Shown one piece after another: positions 33,819 to 39,832 of a stretch of DNA of 44,861 bases. Under the pieces are notes generated by a model. That model worked only from the letters and a program-made list of their open reading frames with translations. It was not told the DNA's origin and ran no database searches. Source of the stretch: Zetaproteobacteria bacterium CG_4_9_14_3_um_filter_54_145 (GTDB lineage: Bacteria > Pseudomonadota > Zetaproteobacteria > Mariprofundales > Mariprofundaceae). A program made the position numbers and the translations under genes. Position 1 is the stretch's first letter. Every line of letters starts with the position of its first letter. The stretch covers positions 1 to 44,861 of the forward strand of contig PFXI01000091.1 of the NCBI GenBank assembly GCA_002791575.1, written 5' to 3'.

Positions 33819-34553
33819 TTATGATGCCAGAAACTGATGGTAGTCAGCCGTCAGTGCATCGACTGCCAGCTTGCAGAACCGCTCACCGGCATCAATGCTG
33901 GCCAGTTGCGGACTAGAGCCCATGCGCCCGTCAGGGAACTGGCGTCTGAAGTCGGCAGCGTCATAGATATCACCGGTCGGTGCAACGACTGGAGCGATGG
34001 CGACATCTTTAACGGCCTCCGGATGGGCAAAATAGCTCAGCGATACTTCACTGACCGTGGCATGATACCCCTCTGCATCGCCATATAATTCCCGTGCAAG
34101 GCTCGTAATGGCATCATTGCGCCACCAGTTGGCCAGCTTGCAGCGCAGCGGGTGCGAAGCATTGCCCTGAATCGCGGCATAAATTTCCGAGAATGCGGCA
34201 GTGACCGGGGCGATGTTGCCACCATGGCCATTGACGAAGTAAAAGTGGGTGAAGCCGTGCCGGTGCAGGGATGACACGACATCAATGACCACCTGTATCA
34301 ATGTCGCCGGACGCAGGGTAACTGTGCCGGGGAATGCCATATGATGCTGCGACATGCCATAGGCGATGGCTGGTGCGATGAGAATCCGCTCCCGCCCGGA
34401 GATGTCGCCCGCAATGCGCACAGGGCAGATGGTGTCGGTGCCGATCAGGCCGTTCGGCCCATGCTGCTCGGTTGAGCCGATCGGGATGATGATGCCTGTC
34501 GACTGCTTCAGATAGTGCTCAATCTCCTGCCATGTGCTCAGTGCCAGTTGCAT
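33819..34553 (-). CDS. creatininase-family amidohydrolase
   Basis: A 244-residue metal-dependent amidohydrolase of the creatininase fold. Metal ligands are visible in IPIGSTEQHGPNGLIGTD (about residues 23-40) and in FVNGHGGN (about 106-113). The family includes creatininase, the mycofactocin protease MftE and ArfB-type FAPy deformylases, so the substrate cannot be assigned from sequence alone. No pathway genes for any of these are beside it. It is convergent with thiI, with only 15 nt between the stops. Confidence 0.85.
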   Translation of the reverse strand: MQLALSTWQEIEHYLKQSTGIIIPIGSTEQHGPNGLIGTDTICPVRIAGDISGRERILIAPAIAYGMSQHHMAFPGTVTLRPATLIQVVIDVVSSLHRHGFTHFYFVNGHGGNIAPVTAAFSEIYAAIQGNASHPLRCKLANWWRNDAITSLARELYGDAEGYHATVSEVSLSYFAHPEAVKDVAIAPVVAPTGDIYDAADFRRQFPDGRMGSSPQLASIDAGERFCKLAVDALTADYHQFLAS

Positions 34554-35826: not shown

Positions 35827-37479
<1,653 letters not shown>

Positions 37480-37527
37480 GATTCCCTGACGGGAATTTGA
37501 CAGCTAGCTGCATCACTATTGATGTGG

Positions 37528-37561
37528 AAAAGGGCGGTTCCGAAAGGGCCGCCCTTTTTTT
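37528..37561 (+). terminator. intrinsic terminator of groESL
   Basis: AAAAGGGCGG and CCGCCCTTTT make a perfect 10-bp stem, extended inside by TCC/GGG around a GAAA tetraloop and followed by more T. It is one of the strongest terminators in the window and isolates groEL from the hairpin array downstream. Confidence 0.92.
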
Positions 37562-37612: not shown

Positions 37613-37836
37613 CTATCGTACCTCATCAGAACAACATCTGTTGCTATGGTGAGATTTGCTTATCGCATAAATGAGAGCCGCCCCCACGACTCTGGTCGTT
37701 TTAGACTATCGCATAAACAGGAGCCGCACCCACGGCTCCTGTTTATTTGCTTATCGCGTAAAGCAGAGCAACGCCCATTGCTCGTTTTGATTTGAGTTAT
37801 CGCGCCACCCGGAGCAACCCCATTGCTCTGGGTGGC
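37613..37836 (+). repeat. five tandem imperfect hairpin units, period 45-47 nt
   Basis: Each unit begins with a 7-nt leader (CTATCGT or [CT]TATCGC) at 37613, 37660, 37706, 37751 and 37797 (spacings 47, 46, 45, 46) and continues into an inverted repeat. Stems: 14 nt per arm, 11 of 14 paired (unit 1); AGAGCCG/CGACTCT, one mismatch (unit 2); 14 bp perfect, 37713-37726 with 37733-37746 (unit 3); GAGCAA/TTGCTC plus weaker outer pairs (unit 4); 14 nt with one mismatch, 37804-37817 with 37823-37836 (unit 5). Loops of units 2-5 are C-rich and end in CCCA. Stem bases change on both arms together while leader and loop stay constant. It sits between the groEL terminator and ppiD; the role is unknown. 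Confidence 0.85.
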
Positions 37837-37921
37837 TTGCTTCGGTAGCGTGCCGAGTCCCAAATAATAGGGTGAACTGGCTGCTGTAGCCTTGCCCCGA
37901 CTCTGAATTCTGAGGTTCATC

Positions 37922-39832
37922 ATGCTCGAATCGATGCGTAGTCACGCACAAGGCTGGATTGCAAAAATCATACTCGGCGGTATTGCACTGTCGTTTGTGC
38001 TGTGGGGTGTTGGCGATTACTTCCTCGGCGGCAAAACAGAGCCTATTGCAACAGTCAACGGTAAACCCATTGGCGGTACCGAGTTTTATCAGGCTTATGA
38101 GCGTCAGCTTAATGCCTATCGCTCCATGCTGGGTACCCAGTACTCCACCGCCCTGATGGACTCGCTGGGGGTCAAGGATACAACGCTGCAGACGCTGATT
38201 AATCGACGCATCATGCTCGATCTGGCGCAGCAACTGCATTTGGCAGCCCCGGAATCGGTGGTGCTGGCAACGGTACAGACGAATCCATCTTTCCAGTCGG
38301 AGAGCGGCTTTGATGTCCAGCGCTATCATGCACTGACACGTAATATGGGCTTCAACTCGGCGCAGGATTACGAAAACGACCTGCGCCTGAATATTATGAT
38401 CAGTTCACTGCAACAGGCGCTGGTTGACTCTGCCCATGTCAGTGAAGCCGAGGTTCGTGATCGTTTTAACCGTACCTATGAGCAGCGGGTCATAGCTGCG
38501 ATAGTTGTGGATCCGGCTACCCAGCTGGATAAGGTCACGGTGAGTGATGAGCAGGCGAAGGCCTGGTATGAAGCGCATAAGCAGCAGTACCAGTCACCGT
38601 TGCGTATCAAGGTCAACAGCGTAGCCGTCAATCCGCGTACGCTGGCCGATGATGTGCAGGTGGATGAGGCGGAAGTTCGTAAAACCTTTGAAGCGCGCAA
38701 GGCCGATCTTGCCGTGCCGGAAGAGCGCAAGGCGCAGCATATACTGGTTAAACTGGCTGCCGGCGCATCGGAAGGTGCACGGGCTGTAGCATTGAAGAAG
38801 ATTGAAGCTGCGCAGGCGCGCATCAAGACAGGGGAGGACTTTGCCAAGGTGGCAAAGGAGGTTTCCGAAGATGCTACAGCAAGCGATGGTGGCGAGCTGG
38901 GCTGGTTTAAACAGGGCGCGATGGTAGCAGCATTTGATCAGGCTGTGTTTGCCCTGGATAAGGGTAGTGTTAGTGACGTTGTTGAGAGCCAGTTCGGGTA
39001 TCACCTGATCCGGCTGGAGGATATACGTCCGGCACATGAGGCTCTCTATGCCGATGCCAAGGATAGGATTCGTCAGGATCTGATCAGGGCACGTGCTTCC
39101 GAGGAGGCCTATAAGCTGTCTCAGGATCTGGACGAAGCGCTGGGTATGGAAGCGAACTTGAAAGCTGCCGCGGCTTCCCTGAACCTGAAGGTCAATAGCT
39201 CGGATCTGGTGAGTCGTGATGAAGCGATGGTTGATCCTGCACTGGCAGATCCGGAAGTTGCTGCCAAGGCATTCTCAACACTGCCCGGGCAAGCGGTTGA
39301 GATCGTGGAGACACGTGACGGACGCTTTGTCGCCATTGAAGTAGTGGAGCGCGTTGAGCCTGATACCTTGCCATATGCGAAGGTGGCTCGCCGCGTGCTG
39401 ACTGAAGCCAAGCTGGATGCGGCGGCAAAGAAGGCGCGCGCAGTAGCTGATGAGATCAGAAGCACTACCGGCAAGTCACTGGATGAGCTCGCTCAGCAGT
39501 ATGGTCAGGCAAAATATATCTCCAAGCCGGTACGCAGTAACGGTCAGGGCGACAATGCCTCATGGTTGAGCCAGGCGCTGTTACAGCAGGCGTTTGCCAC
39601 AGAAGCGGATGGATGGGTAGATCAGGCAGTGCAGGTCCCGCAGGGACTGGCTGCAGTGCGCATCCAGCAGGTGATTGCAGCCTCCGGTGAAGAGTACAAT
39701 AAACAGAAACAGGGCATTACTGCCGAAGTGAAAAAAGCCAAGGGTGAAGCCCGCTTTGCCCGCTGGATGGCATCGGTACGTGACCAGTATGAGATCACTA
39801 CGAATCAGGGTGAGCTGACACGTTTCAAATAA
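37922..39832 (+). CDS. ppiD: peptidyl-prolyl cis-trans isomerase PpiD
   Basis: Inner-membrane-anchored periplasmic chaperone that meets proteins leaving the Sec translocon. The 636-residue product has an N-terminal membrane segment (IAKIILGGIALSFVLWGVGDYFL, about 14-36) and a SurA-like N-terminal chaperone region (about 40-200). A parvulin domain spans about 268-370, with QHILVKLAAG, GELGWFKQGAMV and FGYHLIRLEDI, and a long C-terminal chaperone region follows. Near groESL it makes a folding-related neighbourhood. The immediate upstream region is the hairpin array, which could form part of its leader; the Shine-Dalgarno (TGAGGTTCATC) is only fair. Confidence 0.94.
   Translation: MLESMRSHAQGWIAKIILGGIALSFVLWGVGDYFLGGKTEPIATVNGKPIGGTEFYQAYERQLNAYRSMLGTQYSTALMDSLGVKDTTLQTLINRRIMLDLAQQLHLAAPESVVLATVQTNPSFQSESGFDVQRYHALTRNMGFNSAQDYENDLRLNIMISSLQQALVDSAHVSEAEVRDRFNRTYEQRVIAAIVVDPATQLDKVTVSDEQAKAWYEAHKQQYQSPLRIKVNSVAVNPRTLADDVQVDEAEVRKTFEARKADLAVPEERKAQHILVKLAAGASEGARAVALKKIEAAQARIKTGEDFAKVAKEVSEDATASDGGELGWFKQGAMVAAFDQAVFALDKGSVSDVVESQFGYHLIRLEDIRPAHEALYADAKDRIRQDLIRARASEEAYKLSQDLDEALGMEANLKAAAASLNLKVNSSDLVSRDEAMVDPALADPEVAAKAFSTLPGQAVEIVETRDGRFVAIEVVERVEPDTLPYAKVARRVLTEAKLDAAAKKARAVADEIRSTTGKSLDELAQQYGQAKYISKPVRSNGQGDNASWLSQALLQQAFATEADGWVDQAVQVPQGLAAVRIQQVIAASGEEYNKQKQGITAEVKKAKGEARFARWMASVRDQYEITTNQGELTRFK

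Follow-up and report, generated by a model that had tools for sequence, protein, structure and literature searches.

The stretch of DNA analysed here (44,861 nucleotides; hereafter the window) contains five tandem hairpins between two genes that we take to be groEL and ppiD, and this arrangement raises the question of what such an array is and how it is maintained. A sequence-only reading had offered three possibilities, a leader RNA for ppiD, a separate structured RNA or a protein-binding DNA array, and had regarded paired differences between the stems as a sign of selection for structure. The description on which those proposals were based is accurate. There are five direct units, spaced at 47/46/45/46 nt and together spanning 37613-37842, each composed of a (C/T)TATCG(C/T) leader followed by a hairpin (Table 1). 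The leaders of units 1-5 are CTATCGT, TTATCGC, CTATCGC, TTATCGC and TTATCGC, the loops of units 2-5 end in CCCA, and the paired stem differences are as they had been quoted. The array lies downstream of the groEL terminator and its end is 85 nt from the ppiD ATG. The strong hairpins have predicted energies of -24 and -28 kcal/mol, that of unit 2 is weak (-8.0 kcal/mol), and units 1, 2 and 4 pair less completely than units 3 and 5. As each unit is a leader plus a self-complementary hairpin and spacers are absent, a CRISPR array was rejected. A search of the array against Rfam matched no family, and no further units were found elsewhere in the window.

Table 1. Features of the groEL-ppiD region (positions in the window).
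Feature	Position	Strand	Description
groEL	35842..37479	+	upstream gene, 545 aa; name presumed from sequence knowledge
groEL terminator	37526..37560	+	strong intrinsic terminator between groEL and the array
Unit 1	37613..37659	+	leader CTATCGT + hairpin (CCTCATCAGAACAACATCTGTTGCTATGGTGAG); most diverged, farthest from the complete end
Unit 2	37660..37705	+	internal type; inner stem weak; loop ends CCCA
Unit 3	37706..37750	+	complete type; perfect 14-bp palindrome 37713-37746 with AGCCG core; arms 37713-37726/37733-37746, 100% paired
Unit 4	37751..37796	+	internal type; core GAGCAA/TTGCTC 37766-37783; outer arms mostly unpaired
Unit 5	37797..37842	+	complete (terminal) type; arms 37804-37817 and 37823-37836, 93% paired; loop CCCCA; conserved right end TTGCTT 37837-37842
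Proposed ppiD -35 box	37823..37828	+	TTGCTC; formed by 3' arm of terminal hairpin
Proposed ppiD -10 box	37846..37851	+	TAGCGT; 17 nt past -35; conserved in relatives whether or not they carry the element
ppiD	37922..39832	+	downstream gene, 636 aa; name presumed from sequence knowledge

Relatives of its PpiD protein place the window in the genus Mariprofundus (Zetaproteobacteria), closest to M. ferrooxydans PV-1 (81% identity). BLAST with the array region found matches in 19 of the 22 other Mariprofundus genomes (best E 1.5e-67) and, with 61 genomes searched in all, in none of the other genera; because it recurs in this way across the genus, the array is not a product of chance. The matches are mostly upstream of ppiD, where the array is present in most Mariprofundus examined, with some elsewhere, for example after purD. 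A covariance model, the check that the sequence-only reading had recommended, was built from 18 complete units and detected the unit at dispersed loci in 20/23 Mariprofundus genomes, with up to 19 matches per genome; unit 5, itself among the model's units, scored E 2.5e-14. In the window's own genome, where elements were counted by means of the model, ppiD is joined by at least three other loci, the pntB and dinG 3' ends among them, as well as by weaker sites; a narrow DNA pattern matched the array alone. Weaker matches occur in a few genomes of other Mariprofundaceae genera. Across 299 genomes of the phylum, matches are confined to three genera, all of this family, and nothing was found outside Mariprofundaceae. 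Two matches in other genera (L095 and L099) look like chance and were set aside, and comparison of the unit consensus with viral contigs gave no match. We can thus be confident that the array belongs to a dispersed family of hairpin repeats, as its copy at the ppiD locus. That it might belong to a known dispersed family had been foreseen as an objection to a structured RNA; the family is indeed dispersed and turning over, and no named family that fits it was found. A literature search on repeats or integrons in Mariprofundus returned nothing relevant, and the family is apparently undescribed.

Several observations relate to this distribution. In a sister genus, tandem units with the same leader directly follow the CCA of tRNA-Leu(gag) (L094, L096, L098, L100 and L102; a tRNA call is lacking at L098), and their A-tract and T-tract arms resemble a two-way terminator. 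In M. erugo, a dispersed repeat of ~212 bp, the copies of which are 90-97% identical, holds a variant of the hairpin (L145, L146, L147, L148 and L149) and looks like the recent amplification of a longer MITE-like element. One 7.8-kb contig (L009, G016 contig C8) carries ppiD and the array twice in inverted orientation, probably as an assembly artefact.

On the strand given here, a complete unit consists of CTATCGC, a 14-nt arm, a loop ending in CCCA, the complementary arm and TTGCTT. Among 63 complete units the stem is 13-15 bp long and the loop 5-6 nt, with the tag CTATCGC or a close variant at one end and TTGCTT at the other. Units often occur singly and not only in arrays, and all arrays inspected are direct and head-to-tail. 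Within an array, the complete palindrome is found in the unit that faces the gene, whereas most other units keep the core alone: the outer arms are paired at 93% of positions in last units and at 34% in internal units. The inner stem is paired at 97-100% in both, a value set by the unit finder, which demanded the innermost five pairs, so that only the outer-arm values carry information. Among recent arrays, all units share an identical left arm, and the matching right arm is found in the last unit only. The simplest route to such arrays would be tandem duplication of leader, arm, core and tail from one complete element, as a result of which internal units would lose their outer pairing partner. 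In a second route, a fresh element would be inserted next to a leader already in place; this may have put units 1-3 beside units 4-5 here. The arrays of the window and of PV-1 are both composite, with an AGCCG-core group that closes with its own complete palindrome, followed by GAGCAA-core units. TTTGCT follows the palindrome of unit 3 and abuts the leader of unit 4, an arrangement that is the same in PV-1; unit 3 may mark the end of an older or separate insertion within the composite array.

The paired changes noticed between the five stems proved to be real and general. In alignments drawn from complete units, and therefore descriptive of the complete class, 98.1% of cells are paired at ppiD (11 species), with two-sided changes in 8/14 pairs, and 100% at dinG (nine species), with two-sided changes in 9/14 pairs; no shuffle reached the covariation score of either alignment. 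The conclusion that had been drawn from such changes, namely selection for structure, is not secure, since the arms diverge faster than their flanks while remaining paired and since G-T and A-C mismatches are equally frequent. Comparison of the window with PV-1 shows differences at 9/16 of the outer arm positions (8+8), whereas the core matches at 17/17 and the 85-nt flank has 95% identity. Other species pairs show this contrast less sharply, and the stem is broken in G004/G018. The hypervariable arms are nonetheless 97% paired. There are 30 mismatches among 878 pairs in the 63 units (12 G-T and 12 A-C), with no excess of wobble pairs on either strand, although a modest bias could be missed among 30. 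Rewriting of the palindrome at the DNA level explains the paired changes at least as well as RNA selection. Template switching is a published route to multi-base paired changes in stems (PMC8794818). The hairpin may form as single-stranded DNA during replication, with one arm being copied from the other, and pairing would probably be kept also by an enzyme that requires a hairpin between constant ends. We put forward such DNA-level maintenance of the arms tentatively.

A converging gene ends inside the unit, or within 33 nt of its reference point, in 35/62 unit rows, and in 18 of those 35 the gene-end offset is exactly the same, such that the stop codon falls inside one arm; the 62 rows include orthologues and are not all independent. 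The host genes, which we take to be dinG, a sensor kinase gene, glnD, a cation efflux gene, def, the trigger factor gene (tig), purD, pntB and glyQ, are unrelated in function. def carries a unit in 3/23 genomes, where the protein ends in KKLYKQGN or KKLFKQGN, compared with KKLYKS or KKLYK when the unit is absent. dinG carries a unit in 9/20 genomes and a remnant in two more. On the dinG tree, at least four changes are needed to account for the dinG label and at least three for the def label. This pattern belongs to a repeat that is gained and lost rather than to a fixed regulator. Orthologous sites without the element exist, but their flanks are not alignable to the base; neither a target-site duplication nor a clean empty site could be made out among them.

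Other sites deserve mention. In other species, the gap between def and fmt holds a different repeat, CCGCAGAGGACGCAAAG ... CTTTGCGTCCTCTGCGGTGAA (L246, L253, L260 and L262), and this gap therefore accepts several repeat families. A 4.3-kb contig (L163, G007 contig C30) carries single units with shared flanks between toxin-antitoxin type genes and an ATPase gene, on the strand opposite to the genes. In M. micogutta, a weak unit is present at the 3' end of a creatininase-like gene (L121), whereas none could be detected at the orthologous gene of the window (33819-34553).

The preference for gene ends invites the suggestion that the unit is an RNA 3'-end element, that is, a hairpin formed at the stop codon on the mRNA of the converging gene (the reverse of the strand given here), which protects that end or terminates transcription and whose pairing is kept by RNA selection. 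The position of 35/62 unit rows at or over a converging 3' end, the strength of the best hairpins and the sister-genus units beside tRNA-Leu(gag), with their terminator-like arms, would all be consistent with this. We nevertheless consider it rather unlikely, given that wobble pairs are not in excess on the gene strand (12 vs 12), that many arms lack a U-tract, that orthologous genes manage without the unit, and that at ppiD the unit is upstream of the predicted promoter with no converging gene present. A second suggestion is that the units form a protein-binding DNA array, recognized for example by a nucleoid or polymerase protein as in REP/BIME. A constant leader, loop and right end around a free stem, in direct repeats at ~46 nt, would suit such a function; single units are common too, loci are gained and lost, and no binding protein is known, and we judge this role improbable.

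A role as a dedicated leader or cis-regulatory RNA for ppiD was suggested by position, the element being upstream of ppiD in most Mariprofundus examined. This proposal was not borne out. Across the Zetaproteobacteria, with the element or without it, ppiD is preceded by TTGnnn-N17-TAGCGT or a similar -10 box, and in Mariprofundus the TTG of this promoter falls within the 3' arm of the terminal hairpin. The promoter call rests on conservation across relatives, a generic promoter scan upstream of ppiD having found no site. Because this conserved predicted promoter places the start of transcription downstream of the hairpins, the array most probably does not form a leader of the ppiD transcript. 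Many unrelated genes carry the same element, moreover, and the ppiD genes of other genera are without it, so that a dedicated leader is scarcely credible. Instead, the element has most likely taken over the predicted -35 box of ppiD. Nearly all ppiD copies have GAGCAA/TTGCTC as their inner stem, as against AGCCA-type at dinG, a difference that would be explained if the element supplies this box. At ppiD the element would thus sit upstream of the likely transcription start and provide the predicted -35. Its long, near genus-wide persistence at this locus could also reflect a function.

Taken together, these data lead us to favour the view that the Mariprofundaceae have a REP-like palindromic DNA repeat, dispersed and non-coding, of which the array is the copy at ppiD and which may be maintained at the DNA level. 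Its dispersal, its presence or absence at orthologous sites, its architecture, its hypervariable but paired arms and its restriction to one family were each seen directly in the genomes. The element would spread as a DNA unit with a preference for gene 3' ends, where an arm often supplies the stop codon.

What moves such a repeat was sought among Y1 transposases and integron integrases. Y1 transposase genes (Y1_Tnp) are present in 21/23 genomes, and the size, palindromic form, gene-end location and dispersal of the unit match those of REPs, as expected of a GTAG/RAYT-type family moved by resident Y1 transposases. The GTAG/CGTC tag is absent, however, and no unit was found within ~1.5 kb of Y1_Tnp genes at the 30 loci examined, nor any hairpin resembling it near four Y1 transposase genes. 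G011 has no Y1 transposase gene, yet about nine elements. A RAYT-type family is accordingly quite improbable. Integron attC sites fold as single-strand hairpins with constant ends and free stem sequence, which the unit resembles, and the single units between toxin-antitoxin type genes recall them as well. Against an attC-like family, the RYYYAAC/GTTRRRY core boxes were not seen by eye in the unit, and its distribution does not track IntI: an integron integrase scores above the cut-off in only 7/23 genomes, and not in G000, PV-1, G008 or G011, which are element carriers. We regard this origin as very improbable. No mobilizing enzyme was identified from Y1 transposase flanks or integrase distribution. 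More speculatively, and as something of a long shot, the unit may be a mobile palindrome of a new class: conservation and recognition would be confined to its ends and loop, the stem of each copy would be continually rewritten as a perfect inverted repeat, and a mover other than a RAYT or integron integrase would read folded single-stranded DNA.

Covariation in a stem is usually regarded as the best proof of a functional RNA, and here it is near-perfect at many loci in a DNA repeat that is gained and lost and whose arms change faster than the flanks; the family therefore warns against calling structured RNAs on covariation alone. It makes template switching testable, across some 20 sister genomes, as both maker and keeper of hairpins. 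It also adds a dispersed repeat family to the Zetaproteobacteria, for which none was found described in the literature, and one that alters the C-termini of genes and lends a predicted promoter box to ppiD.

Among known systems, the BOX elements of Streptococcus pneumoniae are modular dispersed repeats whose tandem internal modules, of ~45 bp, occur in variable number. The Mariprofundus array is also modular and dispersed, with tandem modules that vary in number, but it has no equivalents of boxA or boxC and its sequence is unrelated. YPAL is an enterobacterial repeat that overlaps stop codons. The small mobile palindromic repeats of enterobacteria, YPAL and RU-2 among them, are likewise small, non-autonomous intergenic elements able to enter coding sequence; they are roughly 100-170 bp long and conserved in sequence, in contrast to the ~46 bp and free stem of the Mariprofundus unit (PMC2229807, PMC2759123).

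The closest parallels are with REPs of the GTAG and CGTC superfamilies, short dispersed palindromes that lie mainly 3' of coding sequences and have, at one end, a constant tag that does not pair (PMC3733652, PMC8266576). The unit differs in its tag (CTATCGC), its other end (TTGCTT), its 14-bp stem with hypervariable arms, its head-to-tail arrays and its low number (at most ~19 model matches per genome). Of the marks of the GTAG superfamily, dispersal mainly downstream of genes is found in the unit, whereas the tag is absent from the 63 complete units and RAYT linkage from the 30 Y1_Tnp loci. The CGTC superfamily is defined by a CGTC tag, an 8-9 bp stem and a 4-5 nt loop (PMC3733652, PMC8266576), and the unit, with its longer stem, its loop of 5-6 nt and its own tag, lies outside it. 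Nor do the inspected arrays have the REP/BIME organisation, in which head-to-head or tail-to-tail dimers predominate. Families of CGTC REPs without a linked transposase are nevertheless described, as is the case for the Mariprofundus unit (PMC3733652, PMC8266576). Thus, while it fails the GTAG and CGTC marks of tag, stem size and RAYT linkage, the unit behaves like a small palindromic repeat of the REP type.
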